Positions 15,442 through 52,408 of a stretch of DNA of 64,000 bases are shown piece by piece. Where the stretch lies: the NCBI GenBank assembly GCA_037349105.1, contig JAYJMM010000114.1:496001-560000 (forward strand), in the 5' to 3' direction. This DNA is from Limnomonas spitsbergensis (Eukaryota; Chlorophyta; Chlorophyceae; Chlamydomonadales). The notes under the pieces were generated by a model. The model worked only from the letters and a program-made list of their open reading frames with translations. It searched no databases and was not told where the DNA came from. Both the position numbers and the translations under genes were made by a program. How positions within the stretch are numbered: position 1 is the first letter of the stretch; every line of letters starts with the position of its first letter.

Positions 15442-15684
15442 TGTCGCACCATGAAGCAGTAACTGCAATACTATGGTAAATACCGTGAACTCCGGTCAGG
15501 ACGCCTTAGAGAGGCGTCCTCTACTCACAAATACGGTACAGCGCCGAACACTCAGGCTCCTTGTACTACATACAAGAGCTGTTAACAGGACAACTGTAAG
15601 GCACAGCCCTAGTAGGAGAGTCTTCCTGTCTAGGGCCTGTCTGGGTGTCCCTGTCTCGTGGGTACCGCCCCTACTACTTTACTT
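15442..15684 (-). repeat. E1 terminal repeat B2 (243 bp)
   Basis: Outer 3' end of E1 on the minus strand. It matches B1 (17157-17399) except for about three substitutions, for example CATGAAGCAG against CATAAAGCAG. It is contiguous with A2. Confidence 0.9.
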
Positions 15685-17154
15685 CGCGATGTGCGCTTCG
15701 GGTCCGTGGCGGACTTCTTTCCTCACAACAGTGAAGGACGCCTACGGGCAGGCTCAGTGACTACTCACTGGCTGCGAGTGCTCAGCGAGTTAAGCTGTGA
15801 AGCTGGATGATGTAAGACTAGCAAATAGCTTTGGGAGCGCAGGCCTTCTGGCCGTCTGGGCGCGATCCAGCGGGGCTATGTAAAGGGGCACTTACCGCGC
15901 GTCACGCGGTGAGGTGGCCGAGGCGTAGACTGCGTACTTCTTCTTCGGCAAGGGTCTCGGTCCTCAACCAGGGACACAGGGAACGGGTTACGGTATCACG
16001 TTATGTTACGATACGTTACGTTACGATACGGGCCTTTGGCCCGAAACGGGATTCAATACGACCTCCCCCCCCAAATCTCACATTTGAGGTGGAGGTGCCA
16101 TGGCCCAAACCGGCATGCATGGCTGCATGCCAGCCCCCATGCAATCTTGCATGGCCCCCAAGTAACCCTTGAGGGTCACCATGTATGCATGCAGATTGAC
16201 CATGCGGAATGCTAGTTTAAGCAGACAATCATTCGGGCAATCATGGATATTTAACTTCTAATTTCACCCAATCTGTATAATCACTAGCACATCCCCTCTC
16301 AGTTGAGTAAGTTCCTCTTACGTCTCACACTCCCACCTGATCTGTTACATCTGACTAGCTGAGCAGCTGAGCTGCAGGCTTGATATCCGTGAGCTCCTGA
16401 AGTGCTAGTTCATCGGAGGGTAAACATATGACACGAATGAAGGATCCCCAAGCGTTAAACGGGTGCATTATCCACGAAATTTCGAAAGGGCTGTCCGAAC
16501 ATGACTTGCGTCTGTTCCCTATCTGTGCTCACAAATTCACAATGCGATTGTAAAGTCTCGTCATGAAGCATAATTTTCGCGTGATGCATCGCTGCAAATC
16601 TGCAATGTACAAGTTGCTGGGCTTATCACTAGCGATGGTCGTGTCACTGTGTGGAATCTCAGCGCGGTCATTCCACACATACTCAAAAAGTGTGGATTTT
16701 CAGTCGGTGCACCGTAGTGGACCGTAACGATACGTTACGTTACGATACGTTACGTTACGGGATTTTTTGCCCATACGGGCCGTATCCTGTGTCCCTGTCC
16801 TCAACTGAGGGTTCTATCTCCTGCTATACCAGCGGAGGTTGTATAGGCTTGACTTGAGTTAAGGTACTGACTTATGGGAACGCAAGAGGTCTCATTCACA
16901 GATGACGGCCGGTGCTTGTTACAATAGAGGTCTGTCCTTTAGAAAGGGACTAAGTAACTAGTTTAGGCAATTGCCGGGATACAGGGACCCGGCAGGCCCA
17001 ATTCAGAGTACGGATTATGCCAAATCACCTTGCGTAAGCGGGTTTCTAGGTCTCAGTTCAAATCAGGAGACTCCGCAGAGAAGCTGCGGAGGCTCCGTGG
17101 CCGCTAATGGTGGCTCAAACGGTTCTGTCACGTATACGGTAATATACTGTGACA
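15685..17154 (-). repeat. E1 terminal repeat A2, split by a hAT element
   Basis: Same sequence as A1 (51776-52408). Removing the hAT insertion and one 8-bp target copy leaves about 632 bp, the length of A1. It joins B1 through a 2-bp GC spacer at 17155-17156. Confidence 0.9.
15969..16797. mobile_element. non-autonomous hAT-type element (829 bp) inside A2
   Basis: Terminal inverted repeats CAGGGACACAGG...CCTGTGTCCCTG are flanked by the 8-bp duplication TCCTCAAC (15961-15968 and 16798-16805). The undisturbed target is seen in A1 near 52055 (GGTCCTCAACTGAGG). Subterminal GATACGTTACGTTACG arrays lie at both ends. No transposase frame is present, so it would need a hAT transposase in trans. Confidence 0.9.
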
Positions 17155-17156
17155 GC

Positions 17157-17399
17157 TGTCGCACCATAAAGCAGTAACTGCAATACTATGGTAAATACCG
17201 CGAACTCCGGTCAGGACGCCTTAGAGAGGCGTCCTCTACTCACAAATACGGTACAGCGCCGTACACTCAGGCTCCTTGTACTACATACAAGAGCTGTTAA
17301 CAGGACAACTGTAAGGCACAGCCCTAGTAGGAGAGTCTTCCTGTCTAGGGCCTGTCTGGGTGTCCCTGTCTCGTGGGTACCGCCCCTACTACTTTACTC
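17157..17399 (-). repeat. E1 terminal repeat B1
   Basis: 243-bp copy of B2. On the minus strand it directly follows a purine run (GGGGAGCGGGGGG, about 17401-17413), a good candidate polypurine tract. It ends GCGACA|GC|TGTCAC at the junction with A2. Confidence 0.9.
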
Positions 17400-18074
17400 G
17401 CCCCCCGCTCCCCAGCGTTAAGCCCTCCAGGCATGCGCGAGGAGCCGGAAAAGGGGTGGTACTGAAAGAAACTTCTGAAGAAATATGTACGTAGAAGCTC
17501 AAATCGTCTTAGCAAATCTGCCTGGTTCAGGCCTTCTCCAAAAGAAAAAAACCACAGAGTCTCAGCTGATGCGCAATGCGCGGCATCCCACAAATCCTAG
17601 CTGTTCAGCCCACTACTGGCTAGCAAACAGAGTTCTCTCAGAAGTCATCATGCCAGGCTAAGAATACCCGCTGCTCTCGCCCCACTGCGCCATAGACACC
17701 TGGTCTTCAAGGCCACAGGAAATGTGCGCCGTAGCAGCGGGATCTGCCCCCCGCTGTGTTTATTGTCACACGAATTGACTACTTATCTTCATCCATCATC
17801 TCCCCAGCATATGTACTACCGCAGCCTTGCTGCTACGGTTCTTTGAGAAACAAATTTGCACTACGTTGCTGCCATAGCTTAGTCCCAATCTTGCATTTCC
17901 CGCCTTCTGCCCGCTCGCTGCCGGCCCACTGCCTGCCGGGTACTAGGGCAAGCCGCGCTGCGTCTGAAGGCATCTTCTGCTACACAGGCGCCAGCCCGCT
18001 CCTTGCCGGTTACGGCGCGGGTATCGTCACGTGCTCAGCGGCCTTGCCGCTCTGGGCTCGGCCTTCCCTGAGTA
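17400..18074 (-). other. E1 3' untranslated region
   Basis: Non-coding stretch between the end of the PHD-containing frame and B1. It includes the polypurine tract and one copy of ATCTGCCTGGTTCAGGC (about 17515), which is repeated four times in the same place in E2. Confidence 0.7.
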
Positions 18075-18695: not shown

Positions 18696-19710
18696 TCATG
18701 TTGCCCCCAGCTTCTTCACCCTTAGAATCTCAGGCCTAGCCTTGGGATCGAGGCTGCGGCGCTCTGATGAGTACCTCACATACACGTAATCTCCCTCTGC
18801 GAAACGCCTGACCTGTGGGACATATCCTCCCCCACGGATGCGTGCATACCGCAACTTGTCGCGGTGCTGCGCAATTTTCAGATGCTCAACCGCGACTGGC
18901 AGGCCTCCTTGATCCTGGCCACTCTGGCCAAGAGCATGTCTGCCGCCTCTTCTGCTGTTGCTACCTTGGCTGTGTTCCACAGTTCCGCCCCCACTCTGGA
19001 GGGAAAGGTGGGTCTCTGCCCGAACAGCACCTCGTACGGCGCCATGCGCGTGGCCTGCTGTGGCGAGCAGCGGAAGCCTAGGGCCACCCAAGGCACCATT
19101 TTGTCCCAGGACTCGTCGCTGCTGCCCTCCTCGCAGCACTTGCGCAGGCCTGCCTTGAGGGTCTGGACAGCCCTCTCGGACAGCCCGTCTGCCTGGGGGT
19201 GGTTGGCAGAAGTGGTGCGGTGATCAATGAAGCAGTCCAGCAACATGTCTTGGAATTCACCCTGGAACTCTGCTCCCTGGTCCGTCACCACCTCTGCGCA
19301 GCCCCCGAATCTTGCGACTACATTCTGAAAGAACGCCAAGGCCGTCACATCTGACGCCTTGCTTGGAATGGGGATCAACTCCACCCATTTGGAGTAATGC
19401 TCCACACACACCATCACAAACCGATTGCCCCTGGGAGTGGTCGTGAATGGTCCACACAGGTCTACTCCCCATCGGAAAAACAACCCTTCAATGGGCAGCG
19501 GGTACAGGTCGGGCTGTGTGTGATTGAATGTGGACGCCCTGGCCCTGTCACACACACCACATTCCTGCACCACCTTCTTGACTGCTGCTCTGAGCCCCCG
19601 CCACCAGTGTTGCTGCATGACCATGAAAGCCGTGCGGTGGCCGCCAAAATGGCCCGTACCAGCATGGGCTTCCTGCCTGGATCACTGCCAGCCTGGCCTC
19701 TGGCCTGCGC
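18696..19710 (-). pseudogene. E1 integrase (HHCC zinc finger, DDE core, C-terminal domain)
   Basis: The N-terminal zinc finger starts in one frame (HAGTGHFGGH region, about 19700-19630) and continues in another (WWRGLRAAVKKVV...CGVC). The rve core has WGVDLCGPF (Asp at about 19462), VTDQGAEF (Asp at about 19282) and HPQADGLSERAVQ (Glu at about 19177); 34 residues separate the last two. A further frameshift near 18880 leads into EGDYVYVRYSSERRSLDPKA, the C-terminal DNA-binding region. It catalyses end processing and strand transfer of cDNA, consistent with the 4-bp duplications seen. At least two frameshifts and one stop break it. Confidence 0.9.
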
Positions 19711-21767: not shown

Positions 21768-21771
21768 AGAT

Positions 21772-21992
21772 TGTCGCACCATAAAGCAGTAAACGCGCCA
21801 ATATGGTAAACTCCGTAATCTCCGGTAAAGGCGCCTTAGAGAGGTATCCTTCTACTCACAAACAGGCTCCTTGTACTTCAGACAAGAGCTGTTAACTGGC
21901 TACTGTAAGGTTCAGCCCTAGCAGGAAGTCTCTCTGCCTAGGGGTAAGTCTGGGTGTCCCTGTCTCGTGGGTACCGCCCCTACTACTTCACT
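21772..21992 (-). repeat. E2 terminal repeat B2 (221 bp)
   Basis: Outer 3' end of E2; identical by eye to B1 (22622-22842). Confidence 0.92.
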
Positions 21993-22619
21993 CGCGTTGT
22001 GCGCTTCAGGTCCGTGGCGGACTTCTCCCTCACGACAGTGATGGGCGCCTACGGGCAGACTTCGTGACTACTCACTGGCTGCGGGTGCTCAACGAGTTAA
22101 GCTGCTAGATTTGTATTTGTATGTCAGGCAATAGCTAGGGTTGGCGCAGGCCTTCAGGCTGTCTGGTCGCGAACCAGCTGGGCAATCAGGTGCACTTACC
22201 GCGTCGCACGCGGTGAGGGTACGGGATCGTAGACTGCGAACTGCTTGTTCGGCAGGGATCTCGTTCCTCAACTGAGGTCTTGTTCTCTTGCTATCTCAGC
22301 GGAAGCTGAGGTAGTCTTGACTTGTTGTAGGTACTGACTTAAGGTACAACTCGGGTCTCACGCACTGGGTGACGGCCGGGGCTTGTTACAGAAGAGGTCA
22401 GTCCTTTTGAAAGGGACGAAGTAACTAGTTTAGGCAATTGCCGGGATACAGGGACCCGGCAGGCCCAATTCAAAGTACGGGACAGCTAAACCCCTGGCGT
22501 AAGCGGGTTTCTAGGTTCCTATTCAAATAAGGAGGATCCGCAGGGAAGCTGCGAAGCCTCCGAGGTCGCAAACTGCGGCCTAAACGGTTTTGGCACGTAT
22601 ACCGTAATATACCGTGACA
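21993..22619 (-). repeat. E2 terminal repeat A2 (627 bp)
   Basis: Matches A1 (37370-37996) at all but one position by eye. It joins B1 through GC at 22620-22621, making the palindrome GACAGCTGTC. Confidence 0.92.
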
Positions 22620-22621
22620 GC

Positions 22622-22842
22622 TGTCGCACCATAAAGCAGTAAACGCGCCAATATGGTAAACTCCGTAATCTCCGGTAAAGGCGCCTTAGAGAGGTATCCT
22701 TCTACTCACAAACAGGCTCCTTGTACTTCAGACAAGAGCTGTTAACTGGCTACTGTAAGGTTCAGCCCTAGCAGGAAGTCTCTCTGCCTAGGGGTAAGTC
22801 TGGGTGTCCCTGTCTCGTGGGTACCGCCCCTACTACTTCACT
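22622..22842 (-). repeat. E2 terminal repeat B1 with adjacent polypurine tract
   Basis: On the minus strand it is preceded by GAGGAGCGGGGGGG (about 22843-22857), the likely primer for plus-strand DNA synthesis. In a conventional element this would place the start of U3 at B1. Confidence 0.88.
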
Positions 22843-22857
22843 CGCCCCCCCGCTCCT

Positions 22858-23600
22858 CAGCGTTAAGCCTATCGGGCATGCGCTAGGAGCCGGAAAAAGG
22901 GGTCGGTACTGTTAGGAAGAAATTTCTGGCAATATGTACACCTCAGAAAATCAAAGTATCAAAGCAAATCTGCCTGGTTCAGGCCTGCTACATGCATCTG
23001 CCTGGTTCAGGCTATATACATAAATCTGCCTGGTTCAGGCCGTCCAAACGCATCTGCCTGGTTCAGGCTTTCTTCAAAGCAAAATTCACATAATCTCTGC
23101 AAGCAATGCGCACATACTGCGCGTCATTCTAAGCATCTCAGTTGCTCATCACTAAACTTGGCTGTTAATCAGAATCATCAGACCAGGCTAAGTATATCCG
23201 CTGCTCTCGCCCCACTGCGCCATAGACGCCTGGTCTTTTAAGGCCACAGGAAATGTGCGCCGCAGCAGCGGCTTCTGCCCCCTTGGTTACTATAACTACT
23301 CCACAAAATCAAGTCTTGTTGTCCATGCTCCCGCATATGTACCACCGCAGCCTCGCTGCTGCGGCTCTGGAGAAACAAATTTTCATAACCCGTTGCTGCT
23401 CTAGGTCTTGTCGCCACCTAGCATAAACAGCCATTGACTCGCTGGCTTCTGGACCAGCATCTGCCGCGCACTAGGACCAGGTGCGCTGTGCCTGAAAGCG
23501 TCTTCTGCTGCACAGCCTCTGCCCTTTCCTGTCGGTTGCGGTGTGAGTACCGTCACATGCTCAGCAGCCTTGCCGCTCTGGGCTCGGCCTTCTATGAGGT
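22858..23600 (-). other. E2 3' untranslated region with hairpin repeats
   Basis: Four copies of ATCTGCCTGGTTCAGGC lie at about 22968, 22998, 23025 and 23051; each can form the stem GCCTG/CAGGC with loop GTT. A larger inverted pair ACCAGGC...GCCTGGT flanks about 23181-23235. No coding signal is seen. Confidence 0.75.
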
Positions 23601-24370
23601 TCAGGTATCGGTGCACCCTTCAAGTGCCGATTCCTCCTCCTCCTTCGCTGCTTCTTTGGCCACCTTGGCCCGTCTGGCAACTGCCCTCGGGGTGACATTG
23701 GCCTCTCCCCGGCCAGTGGTGTACGAGATGTCGTACAACCCGTTCGCCATTGGCCTTGCGATGCCCCGCTCCATTTGCCGCGTAGCTGGGTTGGTGGCCA
23801 TAACCTCCACCTCAGGCCTATCCATGATGTCGGCATCCGGGGCCGCCCTGGCTGCTGCCCTGGCAGCTGGGCTTGGCCGCCCCTGGACGGCTGTGCTGCG
23901 CTCTGGCTCTGCAGCGGGCCCTGCTATCTCAGCTGGCCCAGCGACCTTGTCGTCCGGCTGGCACCGTGGGCACAACCAATCGCCCTCAGGCACCTCATCA
24001 AGAGCTGGTACCAAGCAATCCATGTGCCAACCCGCAACTGGCAGCGCCTCTTTGATCCTAGCCACTCTGGCCAGGAGTAGGTCCGCTGCCTCCTCTGCTG
24101 TTGCCACCTTGGCGGTGCTCCATAGGTCCGCCCCCACTCTGGAGGGGAACGTGGGTCGTTGCCCAAACAGGACCTCGTATGGCGCCATGCGCGTGGCCTG
24201 CTGCGGCGAGCAGCGGAAGCCCAGCGCCACCCATGGTACCATCTTGTCCCAGGACTCGTCGCTGCTGCCCTCCTGGCAGCACTTGCGCAGTCCTGTCTTG
24301 AGAGTCTGGACTGCCCTCTCTGACAGCCCGTCTGCCTGGTTCCTGCGCTGCATCTGCCCAATCTGCCGCA
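23601..24370 (-). pseudogene. E2 remnant of integrase end and PHD half
   Basis: In a different frame from the long E2 frame: ADGLSERAVQTLKTGLRKCC (last catalytic region of integrase), WVALGFRCSPQQATRMAPYE, then KEALPVAGWHMDC, where a deletion joins the integrase C-terminus to the second half of the PHD finger, then the same Ala/Arg-rich tail as E1. The first two catalytic Asp residues and the first half of the PHD finger are missing. Confidence 0.85.
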
Positions 24371-27300
24371 GCTGATTCTCCCATGCACTGCCTGTACGTC
24401 GCTGCCACCTCCCCACTGCCAGAGCACGCGTTCCCTCCAAAGGGCTCAAAGAGGACCACCCCTTCCTTCTCCATGGTCCTCACAGCCTGTACCGGCAGGC
24501 ACGCTGTGTCCACCCCCTGCGTGCCGCAGTAGCCTGGCAGGTCTTCCATGGAGTAAGCGAATGCTCCCTGGCGGTCCCTGAGGCTCTGCTCGAGGGACGC
24601 CTGCTGCTCCTCCGTGAAGTCAGGGTGCTTGCCCAGCAGCCATCCTTCTTCAGTCTTTACATATTCCGAAGGTGGTTCAACCACACCTCCTGGCTGGAAC
24701 ATGTCGATCATCTCTGCTGCCTGCGGGTCGTCCTCCGCGGCTGGTGCTTCCCCCTCGGTGCTGCTGTTGCGCTGCCAATCCTCCTGCTGGCTGTAGGCGC
24801 CCCCTGCCCCGCTGGCATCCCCCAAAGAGATGACAGCCGGCGGGCGCAGCCAGCCTGACGTAAGCTTTGCTGCCGCCTCCTGGCTGGACACAAAAGCACC
24901 CTGGCTGGCTGTAAATCCCCCTCCACGGACGCCCTGCTCAGTGGCCCTTGCACCCGGGATGCACGCTGACAGCAGTAGCCACACCAGCAACAGCTGGAAT
25001 GCACCCGTAAGCATTCCCTTGAAAGCTGTACAGGTCAAGAGTCCCCTGCCTGCTGGCGGCTGCCGCCCAGCAGGCGGCTGTTGCCCTGCTGGCTGCGCCA
25101 ATAACGGTTCAGCATGTGGCCCTGGCCTCAACTGCTCTGTGGCCCATGTGATCTCCAGCTCCACCCGGCTGATCCTGCCTGGCTGGCAAGGGCAATCCCT
25201 GCCCGGCCTGCTGCCGCGATCCCTGTCTGCAGCCTTCCCCTGCGCCTTCCTTGCGCGGCGCATAGCCTTTTTTGACTTCTTCCCCTGAAGCTCGGCTGTT
25301 TCCGTCCAGGCTGCGTCGGCCCCTACTGGCCGCGCCTCTGACTGAAATCCCCTGCAGCGCTTGGCCTGCTGCCCCTGTTCGATTCTGTCTGCCCTGTCTG
25401 CTGGCAACTGCCGCCTTCTGATGGCTTCCAAGGGCGCGTCCCCGTCTGGGCAGTCCTTGGTCTGGTGGCCAATCTGGGCGCAGATGAGGCACCTGCCTGC
25501 CCTCTCCCCTGGGTCTGGGCAGGCGTGATAGTCGTGCCCATGCCTGCTGCTTCGCAGGCCTGGCTCCCTGGTAGCTGACCCACGGCCCCCTGCTGGATGC
25601 GCCAAGTCACTGCATTTATGGCATGCCCACACTCCTCTGCGGGTGCCGCCAATGCTCCTAGTGCCGGCACACGCCCCGCAGGCTGTACCGCCACACGTGC
25701 AGCACTTCCTGCCGGTCCCTTCCTCTAAGCTGATCATGCAGCCCAGGCACCGCTGGGGCATGCCTGCGACAATTCTGCCCGGTGGCTCCCTGCTGACTGT
25801 TATGCCGCTGGTTAGGCTGCAAGCTCCACGGGCTGCGCCTCTGCCCTGGCTCTCTGGCCTGGGTGGGTGCCGCACTGGTGCCTGGCTGCTGGCGGGTCCT
25901 ACCCGGCGGCCCATGCCGCCTGCTGCTGCCTGTGCATCCCTGTCGCCCTGCTCATCGCCTGAGCTAGCGCTGTCTGTTTCTGCACCCTGTATGCACATAA
26001 GCCCGGGGGTATTGCTTGGTCGCCACAACACCCCCTGCCCTTCTCGGGTGCTAACCCATTCTGCAAGCTGGCGCTTCACTACCCTCAGGTTGAGGTAAAT
26101 GTCATCGGCGTACACCAGAGCCGCCTGCTCTCGTCCCCTGCCGCTGACCCATTTGGCCGCGCCTCTGAGTTGGCGCAATCTGCGAGCCAACCCAGTTTGC
26201 AACTGTCTGATGGCTGCTTGAAGCCCCACTTCTAGCAAACCTGCTCCCTCCAGGAGCCCAGTCATCATGCTCAAGTGTATTGCTATGGTTCCGGTATCGT
26301 CCTCTTCAGGCTCTACCGCTATCCCTTCAGCTTTCCTCAGCCGGTATTGCAGGATATGCCTGGCCACCCGCAGTCCCTCCAGCTGGCTGTCTGACTGCGC
26401 CCTGGCATCGTCCAAGCCTTCCCCTGCTGAAGAGTCTCCGTCACTCCGCTCCTCAAGGCAAGCCTGCCAATGAGCGGTGACTGCCGGTGAAACCTCGTCT
26501 ATGAGTGCAATCATACTGACGCCCAGTTCCCTCTCCAGGTCTTCCAACGCCTGGTTGTACTGCCACATCCTGGGATCTGGACTCTGCCCTGGCAACGCTC
26601 TGATTTTGAACCTCATGCTGGACCAGGCCACGGCTGCGCTGCTGTTGACCAGCTCCTGGCCCGTCTCATACAGGCCCATCTCTTCCCTCCTCTGCTGATC
26701 AAGCCGCTCTAGACAATTCCCCAAGGCAGACTTCCAGCGCTGAGTGCTGTACGAGGCGGGATCCCCCCAAGGGTCCCTTGCCACTGGCTGCACCGGCTCA
26801 TTCATTTGTCTGTCCCTTGACCTGTTGCTGTCGGGCCTGGCCTCCGCTGTTACCAAGGAAGCCGCCATGGGCAGGACCGCAGCATGCCGCCGGTTCTTCC
26901 TCAATGCCGGCAGGTGCTCCCCTAGCTCAACCTCCCACTCGCGGTTGCGCCTTGTTTCCTCAATGGCGGCTCTCTCCCAACTTCCATTGCTCATCCACTG
27001 TTGCTGCAGCTGCTCCATTGACTCTTCGAAGCTCTGCTCTGGACACTCTGGTCCTGGGTATGCTGAGGCTGACTCCCCCGGCATGTCTGCACTCCTGGCC
27101 ACTGGCCAGCCGATGCTGATCACGCCCACAGGCAGCTGGGGGCTGCTTGCCCCATACTCCTCATCTGACTCTGAGTCAGCCACCAGCGGTGGCAACCCCT
27201 CCAAGGGGTCTTCTTTCTCCCCACCTGGTAGGCTCGTGCCCCACTGGCCTGGATCCTCTCCCTTGCTGAACCCCTGGTTCCTGTTGGCAGGGTGTCCTGC

Positions 27301-30300
27301 TATCAATCTGCGTTCGCTGTTGTCCTTCGGAACACTGGTTCCGCCGCAGCTACCCGAGGGCGTCCGGGACTCTGCCCGGTCCCTGGTTTCCGCTGACGGT
27401 GCTGCCAGTTCCTGGTCAATTGCTAGCCACACCCACTCTGATGCTGTTGCACCTAGTGTAGTGACGAAAGCTGCCTGAAACGGCACACACGGCCCTGGCT
27501 GCTCTGAAGACTCTTGGGACCCCTCACTACTGTCAGGGTTGGGGTCCCATCTGCGGGCACCCCACCTGCCGATCCTCCACTGACCCAGCGCTGGCTGGTC
27601 CCTCAGCTCCATCAGCTCTTCCTCATAGGTTCCTGATCCCACTCCCCTGAACAAAGGGTGCAGCGTGCGCACCCCTGCTGGGTGCGCCTGCTTCCACAAC
27701 TGCACCGTCACGGCGTTAGCCTGCCAGTGAGGCGTCACGCTGCTGGCCCTGTCCTCCTGCCAGGCCTTCCTCTCCTTGCGTACCCACTGCTGCACGCAGT
27801 CCTCCAACCGTTCTAGCGCGAACGGCGAGCGCGCCAGCTCAAACTCCCCCTCCCACATGGATCCGCTGTCGGACGCTGGTCTCGCCCCGTATGGCCATGT
27901 GGGGCATTCAAACTCCGCAGGCGCCCACTGCGCTCCCACGCTCCATACCTCCTGCATGGCTGCCGACATTTGGTCAGGCAGCATGGTCCTTTGCAGCACC
28001 ATCATCATGATGGTCCACACTGCTGGATCTGCACCCCTGGCGTACTCGTGCGCGTGGAACTCTGCTTCCTCTACATTGGCACATCTGACAATGGCTACGT
28101 TCCCCTCGCTCCTTGCGAAGAAGAACACCGGCATGTCATTCCTGGAGGCGTGCATGTGGATCCACGCCTCTGACACCGGGATCTCTTCCTCCTGCACCTC
28201 CTCATAGTAGTATGACGCGGCCCGCTGCACTGGGATGGCTGCCCTGGCGTCCCCCGGCGCCAATCCCCATGGCACAGCCTGGCCTGCTACCACCCTGGGT
28301 ATGAGGATGGCTGCCTCGATGATATCCTCAATCCTCCTGGGCTTGCCCCCATGGCAGAGCCCCGCGCCGTCGTAGGTTCCCTCGGCCGCCTCACTGCTCC
28401 TTCCATACGTCCCTGCAGCCACTGCCTGCACGGGCACGTAGAAGGCGCACTCCCTCAGGCTGGGGTGTCCCAGCAAGCTGTGGGCACAATGCTGCGCCCA
28501 AGGCGCGCTCATGAATCCCAGCTGCGCCCCTTGCCAAACGCCATCGGTGCGCACGCTGTCGGGCACCTCCCATCGTGCCATGTCCGCAGCGCTCACCGCT
28601 GTTATTCCCTCTTGGCACACCAGGCGCACGGCTCTGTCTACGCATTGTAACCAGACGGGATGCCGCCACTCTCGCTGCATCAACTCAGCCATCACTGTGC
28701 TGGGCTTGATGTACCCCTTGAGAGCTACGATCAGCAGTACTGCCGTAACTGCATCCCATGGGAACACCAGCCTGGCTACTGCCTGCATGGCTGCCTGCCT
28801 ATTGACGCACACTACCTCACGGCTAGGCAGCAGCCTGTGGTTTTGGATCCTGCAGATCCCATCCTGGGCATCCTCTGGCACTGTGAGCATCGCCTCAGTA
28901 TCCGCTGATCCTGGCAGCTCGTCTCCCAAGCGATACCACTGCACGAAGCTCCTGCCCCCTGGCTGGCCCGGCGGTATAGGCCTGGGCTGGGCATGCTCCC
29001 TGTCGCTGGCTTGTTCGCGGTGGTCCTCACCGTCCTGGTCATAAGCTGTATCCTCGTCCCTTCCGGCGGACCACCTGTCGCTGACACCCCTGCTGGGCGG
29101 GCCACTGGCCGCCTCCCCCCATCCTCCAGGGCTGTACCTGGAGGTGGTGCAGCAGTGGTTTCTAACGGGTTCTGCCGTATTGCCACCCGAGCTCCCCGTT
29201 GCGGCTCCCTGAGCCTCTCGGTGGCGACCAGTCCTGCTGACTGACACCTGAGCCCTGGCGGCTGCCCCGTTTGCCGCGCTTCCGATGTGCAGCGGTACCT
29301 CCGGGGTGCCTGGGCATGGTAATACAGACCCTTGGTCAGGCATGGGCGTGTCCTCCCGTGAATCTGACCCCCTATCGGAGTTGGCTGAGCCATCCTCACT
29401 GGGACTGGCCTCCCCCTCCTCATCATTGTGCTGGTGCATATCCGCCTGTGCTCCCCTGTTGGCGTCATTCATATTATCAAAGTGATCTGACTGCTCCTCT
29501 ATCAGAAACCTCTGCAACATGTTGGGCCAATCCTCACAAGGGGCTGGGCACCCCCTGCGCTGGAGGTCCCTCAGGACCCACCCTGCATGGTGGATGGACT
29601 TGGCTGATCCTGCGGGCATAGTGCCGTAATGGTTCATAGCCAATGACTCCATCACCACCTTCCAATGGTGCTTCTGAAGGGGCACCTGCCCTTCTAGCAC
29701 CCACTGGGTGTCCCCTGGTACCTCTGCCACCTGGTTGCTCTGAACCTGGGCTGTGCCGGCGGCCTGATCAACCCCCCCATGGATCGATACCAGGCACGTG
29801 TGCCTTGCGAGACCCTCCCACCTGGGCGCCTCTTGCATCACTGTGCCCTGTCGGCCTGGTGGTCCTGGCAGCTCACTCTGGCTTGCAGCAGCCTTCTGCG
29901 CTTTCCACTCCTCGAAGGAGGTACGCTGCTCGGCCTCGTAGGCCCTCCTTAACCTGTCCTCTGGACCCTCCAGGCTGTGGCCTGGTCCATCAGCCCTCAC
30001 ACCCCTCTCTGGGCCGGCTGGGACCCTAGGCTTGTCCAAGCGGCCGCTGCTGCCCGCCATCACCGACCTCCAGTCTGGGCATGCGCTGGCGAAGTGCCCT
30101 GGCTGATGGCACTTGAAACACACTCCTCCATCTCGGGGTCCCAGGTGGGCTGGCTTGGCTATCCGTCCCTGTCCAACCGTGGCCCTGCCCGGCGGACTTT
30201 GGTCAGCTGCCCTCCTCCTGTCTTGTTCTTGGTCGCCCTTTTTGAACGATCTGGCCAGGCTCCCTGAGCCTCGCTCTAGGGAACGGCCTCGGGGCATGCT

Positions 30301-33300
30301 GCCCCTCTGCTCTGGTCCTGGGCTCTCCTTCCTTGCATGGATACGCCTGTCGCTGTCCCCCTCACTCGGGGACCTGCGCCACCTGCCCTTGGCCTGTACA
30401 TCGGCCGGGCTGCTATCTCCTGTGTTGTGCTCCGTCAGCTGGCTCTTGACCCCTGGCGTGGGAGCCACCGCCTGGTGCTCCCTCACTTGCCCTCTTTGGG
30501 CGCTCCTGCTGCGCTCCCTGGGAGCCTTGTCCTCGGCCTCAGCTGCTGCCTCTGTCCCCCTCCGCTCCCTGCGGGCATCGGGACTAGCCATCTGAGCTCT
30601 GTTGGCGCCCCCTGAGTTGTTAAGCCCAGGGTTCCTCTGCTGTGCTTCCGCTGGTGCCGCCGTGCTGGGGGGCTCGACTTCCCCCTCCAGGTCGCTATCC
30701 CACGGGGATGCGGGCACAAACGCCTCCTGGATGCTGGCTGCCAGCTCCGGGTCCACTTGCACCCGGTTTTGCGGCCTTCCCGCCTGCAGGTCCCCAATGG
30801 CCTGATACAGGCCTGGCAGTTGGCCTGCCCGCAGAACATACTCCTTCTGTACTTCTGTCATGACGCTGTCCACTGACTTGATGTCATCCCACCTTGCTAT
30901 CTGCAAGCGTAGGTACTGCACAAAAGCCGCGCTCTGTTGGTACAGCTGTACCTCCATGTCTTTCAACGCCTTCTGCGCGAGCCGCTGCTGGGCGCGCAGC
31001 CTATCCAACTCTTTGGATGCCCTGCTGCGCAGCGCCCCCTGGGGTTCCGCCTCCCTTTCGCTGTCTTCCTCCTCCTCCTCATCCTGACTGCCGGACTGGC
31101 CCTGGCTGGGATCTGCTTTGTCACCCTGGGCTGCTGCGCCCTGCTCTGCAACTTCCACCTCCGGGGCGACAACCTTGTCAGCCTTCCGGGTACCTGGAGC
31201 TGGCCTGCCCCTGCAGACCTCTTGCTGCATGGATTTTGGCGCCTCTGCCCGCAGCCCTGACTTGCTGAGGTCCAGAACCCTGTTGTCACAGCATTCCGCT
31301 GTGTGCCACCCCTTTGCCCCGCACAAGGTGCACGGGTTCTCCTCGCTGGGTGGGTTGTTCCTCCTCAGGAACTCCTTCCTGACTACCGGCATGGTCGCTG
31401 CCGCGTGTGCTCTGCGGATGTTCTCCGCCATCTCTGCCGCGGCCTCCGCCTGCAGCTCTGCACGGCTTTGAGGTTCCTCCGCCTGTCTGCGCTCACGCCT
31501 TTCCTGAGGCGGCGCTGTTGCGGGTCCGCTCGGCACCTCCCTGTGCAGCCTCTGGGCGCCTCGCGCCTGCTGCGGCTTGCTGTTTTGCAGGGACGCCCCA
31601 TGGGGCTCTTCATAGTTTGCTGAAGCCCTCATGGCTGCACCTGCACGGTGGGCCATGGCATGTTGTAAGAGGGGCTCATGCTCGTCCTCAACACTGGCCG
31701 CAGGCCATCCTTCCCTTTCGGCGAAACCGCACTGGATCCCTGCCCACGCCACGGCTGCTGCCTGATATCCCCCCACCGGGGATGCCAACTCCAGTGGCAG
31801 CGTAAGGTCCCTGGACCCGCGCGCCCCCTGGGCACCCTCTCTGGGGCGTAAGGTCAGCCTTCCTGCTGCCTCGAGGACTCCATCATATTTGAGAAACTCA
31901 GGGTTCCCCACCAGGTGTTCATATGCGTCAGGCGGCGTCTTCACCACACGGACCACTGTGGGCTCCATGATGGCGTTAGGCCCACCGTAACCATACACCA
32001 CATAAATAAACAGGATACCATACAGGTCTGCCCCTGCATTGTCCGTGGTACGGATCTTCTCATCCGTACGCACCAGCTCAGCGCCCATGGCCACTAGCTG
32101 TTCAGCAATGTTCACTGTGATAACATGGCAGGAGCAAGCAGAGTCCATCAGTGCTTTCTGAGCCACTAGGACCTTGCCCTTCACCATGAGACCCACACAC
32201 TGCTCCAGGTTGCTCCTGTCGTTTCGGAAGTACTGCAGTTTTGGCGCTGCTGGCACCACCCTGTTCTCTTGCTTGCCCCTACTGGCCTCACCACGCTGGT
32301 CGGTTCCCATGGGTAAGGTAGCGCAAGAGAGTGACGACAACCTCTCGTTCAGCTTGAACACCTGCAGGCGGATATCAATCATATCGTCAGCTAATCTGCT
32401 CAACACCAGCCTCTTTTCTCCCTTCCTGGAGGCAGGTTCCCTGAGGCTCTGCTCAGGTTCCTCCTCCCTGAAAGGTTCTGGCAAGAATGACTTAGGGCGG
32501 GCATTGTGAACTGCCTGTTTAAATTCCACATGCTTGGGCATCAGCCCAACCTGCGTCATTAGAGCCACCGACTCGCTGAGCATCTCAGCCATCGTCTGGT
32601 GCCATCCCTCAGGCTCAGCCTGCCCTGTTGGGCTGGTCAGGTGCGACACATGTGCCGCCTGTTGCGCCTGACCACCCTGGCCTGGCCCTGGCCTTGGATA
32701 CGGCCTGTTGCCCTGGTTCCGATCATACGGCCTGCCAGCCGCCTGTCCCTGCGGCGGCCTGGGCGGTAGAGGATACTGCTGCGGCGGTGGTCTGGCCTGC
32801 CCAGTTGTTATGTCTGTAGCTAGTGGCGCTGGCCTGCGCTCATCCCTGCGCTCATCTCTGCGCTCATCCCTGGCCCTGGGTACTCTGCAGTCCCTGGCCA
32901 GGTGCGCTGTGCTACCACACTGGTAACACGCCTTGGGTACCCCCATAGCGCTCCCTGCGCTGTTGTGCTGCGCTGCGGGTTGGTCTGCCCAGGAAACTCC
33001 TCTGGGCTTACCCTCACTCCGCTGTGGCTGTGCTGCAGCTGGGCCTGCGGGGATCACTGCCCCGTCCAGGCGAGCCCGCATCTCCCACTGTCCAGTCCGC
33101 TCTCTCCTTCCTTTGTTGTACTGCGCCTCGCCCTGGCCAAGTCCACTGCTGGCCACCTGCCTCAGGCTTGCTCCTCCTAGGTCCCCCATTTCCAGGGTGA
33201 ACTTCTCCCACAGCACCACCTGCTGAGTCAGCACTGTGATCTGGTCTTCATCCGTCATACTCAGGTACCCTGGCACTGTGACGACGAACTCGCTGAGCTT

Positions 33301-37345: not shown

Positions 37346-37368
37346 TACTTCGTCCCTTTCAAAAGGAC
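37346..37368 (-). promoter_or_regulatory. E2 self-complementary primer-binding-type site
   Basis: Just inside the end of A1 (37370), where an LTR element has its PBS. This 23-nt stretch is the exact reverse complement of 37778-37800 within A1. The E1 pair (51752-51774 with 52188-52210) is also exact although the sequence differs in the middle. A folded RNA could prime itself, as in the yeast element Tf1 (inference). Confidence 0.75.
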
Positions 37369-37369
37369 A

Positions 37370-37996
37370 CGCGTTGTGCGCTTCAGGTCCGTGGCGGACT
37401 TCTCCCTCACGACAGTGATGGGCGCCTACGGGCAGACTTCGTGACTACTCACTGGCTGCGGGTGCTCAACGAGTTAAGCTGCTAGATTTGTATTTGTATG
37501 TCAGGCAATAGCTAGGGTTGGCGCAGGCCTTCAGGCTGTCTGGTCGCGAACCAGCTGGGCAATCAGGTGCACTTACCGCGTCGCACGCGGTGAGGGTACG
37601 GGATCGTAGACTGCGAACTGCTTGTTCGGCAGGGATCTCGTTCCTCAACTGAGGTCTTGTTCTCTTGCTATCTCAGCGGAAGCTGAGGTAGTCTTGACTT
37701 GTTGTAGGTACTGACTTAAGGTACAACTCGGGTCTCACGCACTGGGTGACGGCCGGGGCTTGTTACAGAAGAGGTCAGTCCTTTTGAAAGGGACGAAGTA
37801 ACTAGTTTAGGCAATTGCCGGGATATAGGGACCCGGCAGGCCCAATTCAAAGTACGGGACAGCTAAACCCCTGGCGTAAGCGGGTTTCTAGGTTCCTATT
37901 CAAATAAGGAGGATCCGCAGGGAAGCTGCGAAGCCTCCGAGGTCGCAAACTGCGGCCTAAACGGTTTTGGCACGTATACCGTAATATACCGTGACA
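37370..37996 (-). repeat. E2 terminal repeat A1 (627 bp)
   Basis: 5' end of E2, starting TGTCACGG on the minus strand and followed directly by the PBS-like site rather than by B. It contains the hairpin GCCGGG...CCCGGC near 37817-37837. Confidence 0.92.
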
Positions 37997-38000
37997 AGAT

Positions 38001-39200
38001 GCACCTTGCACCCAAACAGCATGTGGCGATACGTGCGTGCTGCATACACTGCAGCCAGCATCTCCCCCTGGAACGAGGAAAAGTTCCTCTCGCTCTTGTT
38101 CAGGGATCTGGACGTGCACGCCACCATGTATTCCCGCCCGCTGTCGTCACACTGCCCTAGCACGGCGCCAATGCCCTGCTTAGAGAAATCTGTGTACAAC
38201 AAGAAGGGTCTTGGCGGCCCCTTGCCATCTGGCCCTGTCCCACTGTAATCTGGTCTGCGCAGGACTCTACCGCCCTCACACATTTCTGTTTTGATCAGCT
38301 GGAACGCCTGCGACTGCTCTGGCCCCCACACAAACGGGACCCCCTTGACCAGCAATGCGTTGATGCATGCCGCCTTTTTCGAGAAGTCCGGGATGTAGCA
38401 CCGGTAGAAATTCAAGAATCCCATGACCTCCTGGATGTTCTTTACCGACGCGGGCTCTGGCAACGCCATAACCGCTGCTATCTTAGCCGCATGCGGCGTG
38501 AGCCCCTGGGCAGACACATTGTGACCCAGGTAAAAAAACAGGGACTTGTCGGGGTGTGCCCTCAACCCGACATTGTGGAGCATGTCTAACATCAGCTCCA
38601 CATGCCTGATGTGTTCTGCCGGTGTATCACTGTACACCAGCAGGTCATCAATGAATGCCACACAGAAAGCACTCAGGCCTGCCCTGGCAATCTCCTCTTC
38701 CATCATACGCTGGAAGAAGGGAGGCCCATTGCGCAGCCCGAAGTTGAGCTTGGTGTACATCCAAAGCTCTGGACCCATCCAGGAAGCCGTCTTAGGCTGG
38801 TCCGCAGCCTTGATAGGGATCTGCATGAACCCCGACCTAAGGTCTACCTTGCTGAATATCTTGGCAGTTCCCAGGTTCTGAAAAATAGTCTCCATCCTGG
38901 GGATGGCAAACTCCTGTTTAGCCGTCCGCAAGTTCAATCTGCGCATATCGTGCGCTATACGGTGGTCAGTCCACTCTCCCGTTTCAGCACTCTTTTTGGC
39001 TGCAACCACTGAGTTGGCTGCAAACTTGATAGGCCCCCCCTGGGGCACCTTGACGATGATACCTGCCTGTATCATCGGCTGGCACTTTTCCTTAAAAATG
39101 GCCGCCTTAGGAGGTGGCATGTCCCTGGACTTCTGAAAGCACAAACTGACCTCGTCTTCCAAAGCCAGTGTAAACTCACCCTGCGTGCCGCAGTAGCCGG
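38001..39200 (-). pseudogene. E1 reverse transcriptase and start of RNase H
   Basis: Ty3/gypsy RT: IVKVPQGGPIKFAANSVV, KVDLRSGFMQIPI, KLNFGLRNGPPFFQRMM, FCVAFIDDLLVYSDT (catalytic Asp pair at about 38650) and YLGHNVSAQGL. The connection region follows (VMGFLNFYRCYIPDFS), then RNase H with LLYTDFSKQGIGAVLGQ and FQGEMLAAVYAARTYRHMLF. The frame is open for the whole RT and is cut by E2 after GCKVHL. It copies the element RNA into DNA. Confidence 0.95.
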
Positions 39201-42200
39201 GTAGATCCTCCATGGAGTAAGCGAATGCTCCTTGGCGATCCCTGAGGCTCTGCTCAAGGCTCTCCTGCTGTTCCGCAGTGAAGTCAGGTTGCTTGCCCAG
39301 CAGCCACCCCTCCTTCGTTTTGACGTACTCCGAGGGTGGTTCCACCACTCCCCCCGGCTGGAACATGTCGATCATCTCCGCCGCCTGCGGATCGTCCTCC
39401 GCGGCCGGCGCTTCCTCGCCAGTGCTGTTGCTGCGTTGCCAGTCCTCGTGCTGGCTGTAGGCGCCCCCAGCCCTGCTGGCACCCCCCATGGGGATGAACG
39501 CTGGCGGGCGCAACCAGCCGGATGTGAGCTTCGCTGCTGCTTCTCGACCAGACACAAAAGCCCCCTGGCTCGCCGTGAATCCTTCACCTCGCACTCCCTG
39601 CCCGGTGGCTCGCGCCCCCGGGACACATACCGACAGCAGGAGCCACACCAGTATCAGCTGGAGCGTCCCCGTAAGGATCCCCTTAAATGCTGTACAAGTC
39701 AGGAGTCCTCTGCATGCTAGCAGCTGCCGCGCGTTTCCCTGCGGTTGGTGCGCTGTGGGCTGTACGTGTGGCTCTGCACTCTGCTCTGGCCTCTGCTGCC
39801 CTCTGGCCCACGTGATCTCCAGGTCTACCTGGCTGATCCTGAGTGGTAGGACTGGGCAGTCCATCCCCGGCCTGCTGCCGCGGTCCCTGTCCGCAGCCTT
39901 CCTCTGCGCCTTCCTTGCGCGTCGCCTAGCCTTCTTTGACTTTTTCCCCCGTAACTCGGATGTGTCAGCCCAAGCTGTACCGGCCCTCTCTGGCCTCGCC
40001 CCTGGGGCTTGTTTCATGCTGCCCTGTGCCAGCTGCTCCTGCCTGCGAGTGGCGCGCTGCACAGCCTCGCTGCTGCCTGCGCGCACGGATTCCTCAGGCC
40101 CCCTGCACTGTCTCATGCCTCTCCGAGCGCTGGCAAACTCCCTTGTTGGATCGGCCACCCTGCTGCTGCAGGCGTGGCTGCCCCCCCATGTGGCTGCTTC
40201 ACCAGCCCAGCCGACTGGCCTGGACTGCTGCAATCCTGGGGGATGGCCGCAGCGGCTGTCTGACGGCTGTTGGGTGGCTACCCCCTTCGCTCCTGTTTTC
40301 CCGAGAGCTGATACTTTTCCAGCTAACTCCTCTTGCAGATCCCTGAGCGCTTGGTTGTACCCTCCCATCCTTGGATCCGCATCGGGCTCTGGCAGCGCTC
40401 TCAGCTGAAACAGCAGGCTGGACTCCTGGCCTGCTTCCTGCAGGCCCATGTCCTGCCTTCTTTGCTCGTCCAGTTGATCGACAAAGGTCTTTAGCACTTC
40501 TGTCCGGCATCCCGTACTGTACGATGCTGGGTCACCCCAGGGCTCCCTTGCCTTTGCCGGCACCGGCGTGCTGAGCTGGGCATCCCCTGGGCGGTCACTG
40601 CCTGCTCCACAGGCTGCTGCCTCCCCTGAGTCTGAGGTATGTGGGTCTGCCGCCTGCCGCGGGCTGACCCCCACTGCGGCCTGGCGCGCCCCAGCCTCCA
40701 TCTCCCTCTTGCTGCTGTGCTTCTCCTTGAGCACAGCCCTCTCCTGACTGACGCTGTTCATCCATTCTTGCCGCAGCTGTACCAACTCCTCCTCGAGGTC
40801 CCGCCCTGGACTCCCTGGACTCCCTGGACTCCCTGGACTCCCTGGTCCTGGGCCTGTGTCGGTTGGCTCCTCCATCCTATCTGCATCCCGAGCTTCTGCT
40901 CTGGTGATGCTGTCTTGCTCCCGGGACGGGGCTCCGCCCGCGTACCCCTCCTCTTCTGACTCTGAATCCTCCACCAGTGATGGCGGCCCCTCCGAAGGGT
41001 CTTCGTTCTCCCCTCCGAGCAGACTAGTGCCCCTCCGGCTGGAGTGAAGCTCCTCGCTGAACCCTGGGTTCCCGCTGTCCCGGTCCCCTGCAATTGGTCT
41101 GCTGGTAATGTCCGGGGTTGTCTGGGGCTCCCCCCGATCCCTGGGTTCAGTCTCCAACGCTGACACCTCCATCTCTTCCATGGGTTCCAGCCATTCCCAT
41201 GAAGATGCTGTTGTCCCGAGTGTGGTGACAAAGGCTGCATGGATCTGTTCTGGTGGCTCGAACGTTTCCTGGACCGGTCCGTCGCTGTCGGCAGTGGGGT
41301 CCCAATAGTGGGATCCATGTCTGCCCACTATCCAGGCAGCGCCCCAGCACGGGCTGGGTCCTCAGCTCTTCCAGCTCCTCCTCGTAGGTATCCGATCCCG
41401 TACCTCTAAACAAGGGATGCAGCGTGCGCACCCCTGCCGGGTGCGCCTGTCTCCACAGCTGCACTGTCATGACGTCTGCCTGCCAATAAGGCGCCACATT
41501 GCTGGCCCTGTTGTCACGCCACGCTCTCCTCTCCCAACGCACCCACTGGTGCACGCACGCTTCCAACCGTTCCACTGCGAACGGCGAGCGCGCTAGCTCC
41601 TCTTCTCCTTCCCACATGGAGCCATCTGCTGGCGACCTCTGGGTCCCATATGGCCATGTGGGGCAGTCTGTCATCTCCACCGGCGCCCACTGATCATCTA
41701 CTCCCCACACGTGCCGCATGGCTGCTGACAGCTGTCCTAGCAGCATGTCCCGCTGCAGCGCCATGAGCATGACCGCCCACGTTGCTGGGTCTGCTCCCCT
41801 GGCATGTGCGTGTGCGTGGAACTCTGCCTCGTCCACTGATGCGCACTTGGTGATCGCTACATTCCCTTCGCTCCTTGCGAACAGGAAGACTGGCATGTCA
41901 TCTTGCGATGCATGCGTGTGGATCCATGCCTCTGAAACGGGCATTTCCCCCTCTTGCAGCTCCTCGTAGTAGTAAGATACCAGCTGCTGTACTGGGATGG
42001 CTGCCCTGGCTTCCCCAGGAGCCACTCCCCCCGGTAAAGCTTGACCTGCTACCATCCTGGGGATGATGACTGACGCCTCAATGGTGGCCTCACACCGCCT
42101 TGGCCTGCCGGAATGGCACAGCCCTGCCCCGTCGTAGGTTCCATCCGCTGACCCATTACCCCTGCCGTGCCCTCCTATGGCCTGCACGGGCACGTAGAAA

Positions 42201-43636: not shown

Positions 43637-43642
43637 ACTTGG

Positions 43643-46859: not shown

Positions 46860-46890
46860 AGCCCTGCTCTCCTGCCTGCCTTTACTGGCC

Positions 46891-51078: not shown

Positions 51079-51751
51079 TCCTACAGGCAATTTACGAACC
51101 ACACGGTCCTGCAGTTGTGCTGGCAACACCAACTACAGAATCTGCTAACGTCAGGCTTCTGCCTCTTGTTCCTACTGCGGCCCGGTGAGGGTCTGCAAGT
51201 CAGGTTTGGATGGCAGGTACAACAATTTGCAGGTCAGGCCTCGCCTTCCTGCTTTTCTGCTAAATAATCGGTATCTGGCGGAATCCTTCGTCGCCTTCAG
51301 CACTTCCCACCTTTCTGGCTGGGCAGCTTCTAGATGTCACACGCCCTGCGTGGATGTAGTCTCTTGCGTGGTGTCCGTTCAGCTCTGCGGTCCTGCGGGG
51401 ATGCTTTGGCCCACCACAGAAATTTTAAACCTTGGATCTTCTATCCACAAGTTCACTTCTGTCAATGATGACAGCTTGGATCCACCTGATCACAATCTTC
51501 AATCACACAGGTAATTTATCTGCTGGGTGTATAAATCCACAGCCAAATCTTCAAGCCTCTCCTAGACTCAGCACTGAGCTGCCGCGCTCAATGATTCTCA
51601 GGGCTTAACTTGGCAATCTCTCTCTGGAGATTACCACAGCAAAATGCAGTTCAACCACTGTCCAAGGTCGTTTGCTGGCAAACAAAATTCCAATTCCACA
51701 ACACAAGCACCTTTTGCAGGGATTGGCAAATCAGGCTGATCAGGCTAGATC
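51079..51751 (-). other. E1 5' leader
   Basis: Untranslated stretch between the PBS-like site and the Gag ATG, similar throughout to the E2 leader. Confidence 0.75.
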
Positions 51752-51774
51752 TACTTCGTCCCTTTCTAAAGGAC
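51752..51774 (-). promoter_or_regulatory. E1 self-complementary primer-binding-type site
   Basis: Exact reverse complement of 52188-52210 inside A1. Compared with E2, TCTAAA replaces TCAAAA here and TTTAGA replaces TTTTGA in the partner, so pairing is kept by matched changes. Confidence 0.75.
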
Positions 51775-51775
51775 A

Positions 51776-52408
51776 CGCGATGTGCGCTTCGGGTCCGTGG
51801 CGGACTTCTTTCCTCACAACAGTGAAAGACGCCTACGGGCAGGCTCAGTGACTACTCACTGGCTGCGAGTGCTCAGCGAGTTAAGCTGTGAAGCTGGATG
51901 ATGTAGGACTAGCAAATAGCTTTGGGAGCGCAGGCCTTCTGGCCGTCTGGGCGCGATCCAGCGGGGCTATGTAAAGGGGCACTTACCGCGCGTCACGCGG
52001 TGAGGTGGCCGAGGCGTAGACTGCGTACTTCTTCTTCGGCAAGGGTCTCGGTCCTCAACTGAGGGTTCTATCTCCTGCTATACCAGCGGAGGTTGTATAG
52101 GCTTGACTTGAGTTAAGGTACTGACTTATGGGAACGCAAGAGGTCTCATTCACAGATGACGGCAGGTGCTTGTTACAATAGAGGTCTGTCCTTTAGAAAG
52201 GGACGAAGTAACTAGTTAAGGCAATTGCCGGGATACAGGGACCCGGCAGGCCCAATTCAGAGTACGGATTATGCCAAATCACCTTGCGTAAGCGGGTTTC
52301 TAGGTCTCAGTTCAATTCAGCAGACTCCGCAGAGAAGCTGCGGAGGCTCCGTGGCCGCTAATGGTGGCTCAAACGGTTCTGTCACGTATGCGGTAATATA
52401 CTGTGACA
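51776..52408 (-). repeat. E1 terminal repeat A1 (633 bp)
   Basis: 5' end of E1. It differs from A2 at about ten positions by eye and shows the uninterrupted target of the hAT element found in A2. Confidence 0.9.

Follow-up and report, generated by a model that had tools for sequence, protein, structure and literature searches.

A Ty3/gypsy retrotransposon family of a green alga with split direct repeats, a DDE integrase and insertion ends that may differ from its reverse-transcription ends

Two nested elements with split direct repeats

We analyzed a 64,000-nucleotide stretch of the green alga Limnomonas spitsbergensis (GenBank assembly GCA_037349105.1, contig JAYJMM010000114.1, positions 496,001 to 560,000 of the forward strand; hereafter the window), in which two nested retrotransposons, E1 and E2, lie on the minus strand. 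A first-pass annotation made from the letters alone had described them as Ty3/gypsy elements whose direct repeats are split into A and B segments in the order A1-internal-B1-A2-B2. Its eight repeat segments proved exact to within a base, and we see that order, the TG...CA ends and a 4-bp target duplication in both elements. Read on the minus strand, E1 and E2 alike run TG-A1-internal-B1-GC-A2-B2-CA, with a GC dinucleotide separating B1 from A2 (17156-17155 in E1, 22621-22620 in E2). The two ends of the inserted element therefore differ, the 5' end consisting of A only and the 3' end of B-GC-A-B. The features are as follows, all on the minus strand:

15442-52408: E1, older element, interrupted by E2; target duplication TGTT
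51776-52408: E1 A1, 633 bp, with the TG start; sole repeat at the 5' end
52187-52210: E1 putative self-primer stretch in A1 (A positions 199-222), complement of the primer-binding site
52173-52177: E1 TGTAA in A, candidate poly(A) signal from its sequence
51752-51775: E1 primer-binding site (PBS), 24 nt, abutting A1, by complementarity
37957-41361: E1 open reading frame (ORF) with RVT_1 (residues 800-948) and RNase H; the E2 insertion (37996) lies at the end of this frame
18878-19681: E1 integrase ORF, HHCC finger H6 H11 C41 C44, catalytic D74 D134 E169
17400-17413: E1 G-rich polypurine tract (PPT) before B1, recognized, like that of E2, by sequence only
17157-17399: E1 B1, by segment comparison
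17151-17160: E1 junction J (GACAGCTGTC), where B1 meets A2; CA-GC-TG palindrome and proposed site of cutting by integrase
15685-17154: E1 A2, with an 829-bp insert (inverted ends, 8-bp duplication)
15442-15684: E1 B2, with the CA end
21772-37996: E2, younger copy (16.2 kb) inserted in E1; target duplication ATCT
37370-37996: E2 A1
37778-37800: E2 putative self-primer stretch in A1, 23 nt, by complementarity and RNA fold
37763-37767: E2 TGTAA, candidate poly(A) signal from its sequence
37346-37369: E2 PBS, by complementarity and RNA fold
34324-36732: E2 802-aa ORF, no Pfam match
24058-34323: E2 3421-aa ORF with zinc knuckles, no reverse transcriptase (RT) or integrase (IN) match
22843-22858: E2 G-rich PPT before B1
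22622-22842: E2 B1, by segment comparison
22616-22625: E2 junction J (GACAGCTGTC)
21993-22619: E2 A2, by segment comparison
21772-21992: E2 B2, by segment comparison

The repeats are nearly identical within each element: 626/627 for A1/A2 and 221/221 for B1/B2 in E2, and 239/242 for B1/B2 and 625/633 for A1/A2 in E1, with the A2 insertion set aside. The first base of E1 B1/B2 falls within a joint that varies among copies (see below). The coordinates proposed for E1 A2 hold, but the 1470 bp are not all A, since they comprise the 633-bp A, the 829-bp insert and the insert's 8-bp duplication; A2 is longer than A1 because of the insert only. Read by eye, the insert (window 15969-16797) begins and ends with the inverted sequences CAGGGACACAGG...CCTGTGTCCCTG, its 8-bp duplication reads GTTGAGGA, and it resembles a small hAT-type element.

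Encoded enzymes

In Pfam, E1 matches RVT_1, RNase H, Integrase_H2C2 and rve, each above its curated cut-off and in the Ty3/gypsy order, with RVT_1 and RNase H preceding Integrase_H2C2 and rve. A 19-row alignment shows no change at the integrase residues H6, H11, C41, C44, D74, D134 and E169. Among solved structures, Ty3 Gag-Pol (E 7e-17) is closest in sequence to the E1 integrase and foamy-virus integrase (E 6e-12) comes next, while a Foldseek search with its AlphaFold2 model (mean predicted local distance difference test score 77) gave foamy-virus (PFV) integrase as the best match (E 1.7e-11) and Ty3 at E 1.8e-9. The E1 RT/RNase H matched 4ol8 (Ty3 RT; E 9e-43), followed by Ty3 Gag-Pol 7q5b (E 1e-41). 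The RT has named relatives among the proteins of Pleodorina starrii, Volvox reticuliferus, Gonium pectorale and Haematococcus lacustris.

We scanned 72 of the 107 ORFs of at least 110 aa, together with the 802-aa ORF and the 3421-aa ORF (the latter in two pieces); 33 plus-strand ORFs lay outside the scan. No tyrosine recombinase was found in the scanned ORFs, and on this scope we reject the alternative that such an enzyme is what mobilizes the elements. No chromodomain was found among the families matched by the 72 ORFs, and a PHD finger was found in two of them (best E 3e-11). The combination supports classifying the E1 family as a Ty3/gypsy-type element with PAT/Kangaroo-like split repeats. 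As expected of Metaviridae, it has TG...CA ends and a short duplication of fixed length, but not the identical terminal long terminal repeats (LTRs).

The claim that the elements encode a DDE integrase with an HHCC finger stands for E1 only. E2 lacks the E1 stretches that hold RT, RNase H and the integrase core, so it must presumably move with enzymes made elsewhere; it is a deletion derivative that displays the layout but not the enzyme. Its large frame stays open despite the missing RT and IN. The 802-aa and 3421-aa ORFs share a frame with one stop codon between them, which could be a readthrough site.

A family-wide layout with 4-bp target duplications

To place the two elements in context, the host genome (G000, 260 Mb, 124 contigs) was searched with exact patterns, which sample E1-like copies with intact flanks. 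The search returned 222 A/B joints, 499 B-GC-A joints (J) and 338 A-PBS joints, and none for the reversed control pattern of each. Where we give counts per 100 listed places, these are the first 100 in contig order for each pattern, of 222, 499, 338, 702 and 689. On contigs C3-C35, for which the three joint lists are complete, there are 66 A/B, 99 J and 81 A-PBS joints. A J lies about 630 bp upstream of 47 of the 66 A/B joints, and 33 of the 81 A-PBS joints have a 3' end on the same strand 5-25 kb downstream (32 distinct 3' ends), at a distance of 17.3-18.5 kb in 19 of the 33. Among the 100 listed B starts, 79 fall into 40 B1/B2 pairs spaced 850-989 bp apart.

Sequences were also fetched from individual loci. 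In L001-L028, B is upstream of A in none of 14 A-internal 5' ends (L001 and L002 being the same insertion or a duplicate). The 3' end internal-B-GC-A-B was read in L008, L009, L011, L013, L019, L022, L023 and L025, and with changes in L012 (part of B1 missing), L019 (B2 shortened by an inverted copy) and L026 (a tandem array), while L007, L016, L018 and L028 are solo A-B copies. The target duplication is 4 bp in all 20 insertions for which both ends were read: E1 and E2; the solo copies L007, L016, L017, L018, L028, L057 and L060 and the tandem solo L061/L072; the full copies L004/L008, L017/L009, L021/L026, L045/L059 and L046/L051; and the atypical copies L024, L037/L050, L031/L047, L032/L048 and L038/L049.

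The first-pass annotation had regarded the layout as a family trait and had called for a search for other full copies. The paired ends and the duplications bear this out: other copies share the layout, none of those examined has ordinary identical LTRs at both ends, and we reject a local rearrangement as its origin.

Probable self-priming and the predicted transcript

A stretch about 200 bp inside A has its reverse complement in the 23-24 nt that immediately follow A1. The complementarity is exact over 23 nt in E2 and 24 nt in E1, compared with a longest match of 10 in 2000 shuffles of A. The primer stretch and the PBS also covary, with three states in 24 copies, as would be expected if the primer were copied into the PBS in each cycle; changes in one without a match in the other occur in L010, L062 and L065. 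Given this complementarity and covariation, reverse transcription is probably self-primed as in Tf1. A predicted RNA of 461 nt folds into the primer-PBS helix (z -4.76). A tRNA primer was considered and rejected, because the bases after A1 (TGTCC...) lack a TGG start and have a long partner inside A, although the host tRNA set was not searched.

Some 27 bp upstream of the primer stretch is a TATA-like motif (TATATCC in E2, TGTATCC in E1 and most copies), and just downstream of the stretch comes TGTAA, presumably the usual green-algal poly(A) signal. At the other end of the internal region, the G-rich PPT directly precedes B1 in both elements. The PBS thus adjoins the 5' repeat and the PPT the 3' repeat, which are their positions in LTR elements. 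An RNA starting at the primer stretch and ending after TGTAA in A2 would have a short terminal redundancy, as in LTR elements, and B2 would be outside it. With priming at the PBS and PPT, standard reverse transcription would then make LTRs of the form B-GC-A rather than A-B, and the inserted copies differ from that product.

Length variation at the A2/B2 joint

The A2/B2 joint unites the PBS side of A with the PPT side of B, that is, the two ends of the cDNA proposed above. Length variants make up 17 of the 100 listed A/B joints (+A in 7, +T in 4, +TG in 4, +TGT in 1 and a 13-nt insert in 1). Nine of the 17 have gained T, TG or TGT, with which the PBS begins, although the G of +TG could instead derive from the PPT side. 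Fetched loci add +G (L007), +AG (L028), +TG (L019) and CATCGGCG (L008), the last of which can be read as an A that has lost bases at its end, followed by GCG contributed by the PPT side. In contrast, there is no length variant among the 100 listed J joints, of which 98 are exactly GC and two have substitutions, nor among the 100 listed A-PBS joints, which also include two substitutions (Fisher p 7e-6 for A/B versus these control joints). On a tree of 26 copies, the nine A/B variants (eight of length, one substitution) require at least seven changes and are spread over different subfamilies, which speaks against simple inheritance of the joint. Because A/B varies in length while J and A-PBS do not, the A2/B2 joint looks as though it is made anew in each cycle by the joining of cDNA ends, and a joint copied from a template is disfavored.

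A proposed route of integration

We consider it fairly probable that the E1 family is a Ty3/gypsy retrotransposon whose integrase-defined ends differ from its reverse-transcription ends. We see the chances as evenly balanced for the more specific proposal, in which integrase cuts a palindrome of the 2-LTR-circle type inside the LTR and inserts the A end together with the detached B end, while the cDNA ends are sealed by end-joining. The sequences themselves show the layout, the target duplications, the complementarity with its covariation, the variable joint and, in the copies sampled, the lack of a mirror layout; the transcript ends, the cutting by integrase and the order of the steps are our reconstruction from the genomic copies. 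First, the RNA would start inside A1, about 27 bp after the TATA-like motif, and end in A2 just after TGTAA. Second, its first ~23 nt would fold onto the PBS and prime minus-strand DNA, and the plus strand would start at the PPT before B1, giving a cDNA of the form (B-GC-A)-internal-(B-GC-A) in which each LTR contains an internal GACA-GC-TGTC palindrome. This palindrome resembles a retroviral 2-LTR-circle junction. Third, integrase would cut CA-GC-TG in the 5' LTR. This would free a short piece of B with its CA end as well as the A1 end (TG), and the two would be joined to the target with a 4-bp stagger. Fourth, the far cDNA end, normally A2, would be end-joined to the other end of B, either in a prior circle or at the insertion site, to yield A1-internal-B1-GC-A2/B2. 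Finally, the 5' LTR may be preferred since it would become double-stranded after ~0.9 kb of synthesis, versus ~14-18 kb for the 3' LTR.

Cutting of this kind has precedents in vitro. Foamy-virus integrase is described as cutting both strands of the palindrome of its own 2-LTR circle, on the 3' side of CA, so that 2-base 5' overhangs are left (PMC1180852), and tetrameric HIV-1 integrase as cutting its own junction (PMC1905944).

Alternative routes

The cDNA might instead be closed first. A linear cDNA would be joined into a 2-LTR circle by host end-joining, and integrase would then open either B-GC-A site, a route of the classical Panganiban-Temin type. This would account for the variable A/B joint with its PBS-derived bases, for the CA-GC-TG palindrome and for the internal/B insertions described in the next section. 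Since a full circle offers integrase two equivalent sites, the mirror layout A/B-GC-A-internal-B would be expected in half of the insertions, yet by coordinates none of the 81 A-PBS joints on C3-C35 has an A/B joint 800-950 bp upstream. Likewise, intact A ends join only the PBS or B in all 100 listed cases: 36 A/B and 48 A-PBS by coordinates, and among the 16 others, which were fetched, 11 A/B and 5 A-PBS with point changes. The circle-first route would need an extra rule that spares one cut site, and we consider it unlikely. Two places that had been taken as mirror candidates were fetched or read and proved to be tandem arrangements: L029 on C9, and L061/L072 on C20, a tandem solo A/B-GC-A/B with the target duplication TAAC.

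A route like that of PAT/Kangaroo elements, in which the RNA reaches B2, A2/B2 is copied from the template and a B1-A2 splint closes the circle, is improbable. In its favor is the order of the repeats, A1-internal-B1-A2-B2, which is the order described for PAT elements (PMC4157794). A templated A2/B2 should be constant, however, and its length varies where J and A-PBS are fixed; no tyrosine recombinase is encoded in the ORFs scanned; and the elements have 4-bp target duplications and a PBS and PPT at the positions of LTR elements.

About as improbable, in our judgment, is a single rearrangement, in one founder copy, of an ordinary LTR element with A-B as its LTR, after which the altered layout would have spread passively. 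The layout is common to all subfamilies seen, consistent with a single origin, but a passive layout would need re-making at every round. The B-GC-A ... B-GC-A insertions expected from it were not seen (one of the 81 A-PBS joints has a J upstream, and this is the tandem L029), so a founder rearrangement would still need a non-standard step. We give next to no credence to an assembly or annotation artefact with collapsed or shuffled repeats: the genome is highly repetitive and has duplicated-looking places (L001/L002, and pairs on C24 and C29), but many sites unrelated to one another show the layout, and in all 20 insertions read the site has a matching 4-bp duplication of its own.

Atypical copies

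The 21 single B starts among the 100 listed include five that are in the A/B list, one in L029, and 15 that we fetched (L030-L044). In five of these (L031, L032, L034, L036 and L038) the order internal-PPT-B is followed directly by target DNA, without A2/B2; the 5' flank was read for three, and all three have a matching 4-bp duplication. We read such copies as products of recombination between B1 and B2, although direct integration after two integrase cuts is just as possible. L035 has PPT-B, with its far end not found, L039 is a normal B1, and L041-L043 are one diverged repeat.

In a further group (L030, L037, L040, L044 and L024), internal sequence is joined to the first bases of B. Target duplications of their own were read for two of these, GGTA in L024 and AGCG in L037/L050. 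Copies of this sort suggest that the start of B behaves as a free end of DNA, to which any available cDNA end can be joined.

Two loci have more complex structures. L029 (G000:C9:3185500-3190000) is a tandem of the form internal-B-GC-A-PBS-short internal-PPT-B-GC-A-B; it is a very small derivative, with an A common to it and its neighbor. In L033 (G000:C7:476900-477800), internal sequence is joined to the last ~54 bp of B, followed by GC and a whole B without A.

Points against the proposed cycle

A number of observations weigh against the proposal of integrase-defined ends and the route by which we explain them. The preference for the 5' LTR is its least certain and weakest part, being a purely kinetic argument from the order of synthesis. 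The cycle as a whole is read from genomic copies and not from a transcript, cDNA or circle. The transcript ends are placed by motifs, and the TATA-like motif is weak outside E2. As to the enzyme, HIV-1 integrase is reported to cut its junction mainly with a 4-base overhang, and the source leaves open the role of this cleavage in cells (PMC1905944).

Sampling also matters. A ends that were trimmed before joining would escape the exact pattern, and the asymmetry between A ends and B starts is therefore partly a matter of sampling. The exact patterns match no 3' end for 48 of the 81 A-PBS places. The places counted are partly dependent on one another: eight of the A/B rows belong to one tandem array on C40, a pair of +A joints on C28 is separated by 6 kb, and element lengths recur on C24 and C29.

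Several copies are awkward as well. L031, L032, L034, L036 and L038 stop at B1, and, as noted, direct integration after two cuts could equally have produced them. The internal/B joins could be later deletions, though their repeated landing at the start of B would then be a coincidence, and L040 has ~32 unassigned nt before B. L033 fits no simple step. J is not wholly invariant, as it reads GCCAGC in the tandem array L026. Later indels could account for part of the A/B variants, a possibility for which J and A-PBS act as controls.

Comparison with known systems

The PAT/Kangaroo/TOC elements of the DIRS order share the split direct repeats A1-B1-A2-B2 with the E1 family. They use a tyrosine recombinase and leave no target duplication, whereas E1 encodes a DDE integrase and the family has 4-bp duplications, a PPT, a self-primer PBS, and an A2/B2 that is apparently re-made each time. 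The first-pass annotation was thus right to compare the order of the repeats with these elements, but the likeness ends there, as A2/B2 does not appear to be copied.

REM1 and the Chlamyvir chromoviruses are, like the E1 family, elements of green algae with a Ty3/gypsy pol, and REM1 also has a PHD finger. The REM1 paper reportedly mentions unusual structural features, and a prior description there is possible. In REM1 a truncated integrase in reverse frame is described (PMC2774666), while the HHCC-DDE integrase of E1 is on the same strand as the RT. We recognized no gypsy family with a split layout and a DDE integrase in the literature searched, from which subscription papers, including that on REM1, were absent.

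Tf1/Sushi and the plant Tcn1 elements have a PBS complementary to the likely 5' end of their own RNA, as the E1 family appears to have, and Tf1 has ordinary identical LTRs. Among plant chromoviruses, self-priming is reported for no clade but Tcn1 (PMC6317226). For foamy-virus integrase on 2-LTR circles, the cut described is in a CA-NN-TG palindrome with a 2-base center, like the cut that we propose at J (PMC1180852). The foamy palindrome is formed by the joining of LTR ends, whereas that of the E1 family would be encoded inside each LTR, and it is the site where the inserted element begins and ends. By analogy, the E1 family would be a self-primed gypsy element up to the cDNA, PAT/Kangaroo-like in layout and foamy-like in its cut.

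Whether integrase uses the internal LTR-LTR (circle) junction as a substrate is an old question, and the answer is recorded in the joints of this family's natural insertions, which number in the hundreds. If our reading is correct, a legible trace of a retroviral end-joining event is preserved in every insertion. Split direct repeats serve as a hallmark of tyrosine-recombinase retrotransposons, but they can also accompany a DDE integrase, and annotation by layout alone would therefore misfile such elements. We also expect LTR-finding programs that require identical terminal repeats to miss them.

Other observations

Between RNase H and integrase, relatives carry a degenerate stretch resembling a C5 DNA-methyltransferase (P0003 residues 715-771; PF00145, E 0.003, below the cut-off). 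A similar stretch is found near the 3' end of the 3421-aa ORF of E2, and PF00145 is assigned in several database relatives. Two scans of viral contigs for relatives of the family gave none that was confirmed.

Tandem arrays of the B-GC-A unit occur in L026 (G000:C39:2983500-2993499) and, by pattern, at C40:595634-608833, with 884-bp and 862-bp steps; L026, taken with L021, keeps matching TATT duplications on both sides. At L006 (G000:C28:727298-730932), A and the PBS are followed by sequence unrelated to the internal region of E1 or E2, and it is possibly another non-autonomous relative with the same ends. On contig C60, L002 (G000:C60:26078-29710) matches E1 A1, the start of the internal region and the same 5' flank exactly, so this contig seems to contain a duplicate or allelic copy of this place. 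By self-comparison, the window also has tandem-repeat arrays at 66-1107, 8558-11242 and 13866-14927, with offsets of ~66 bp, 41/82 bp and a longer unit.

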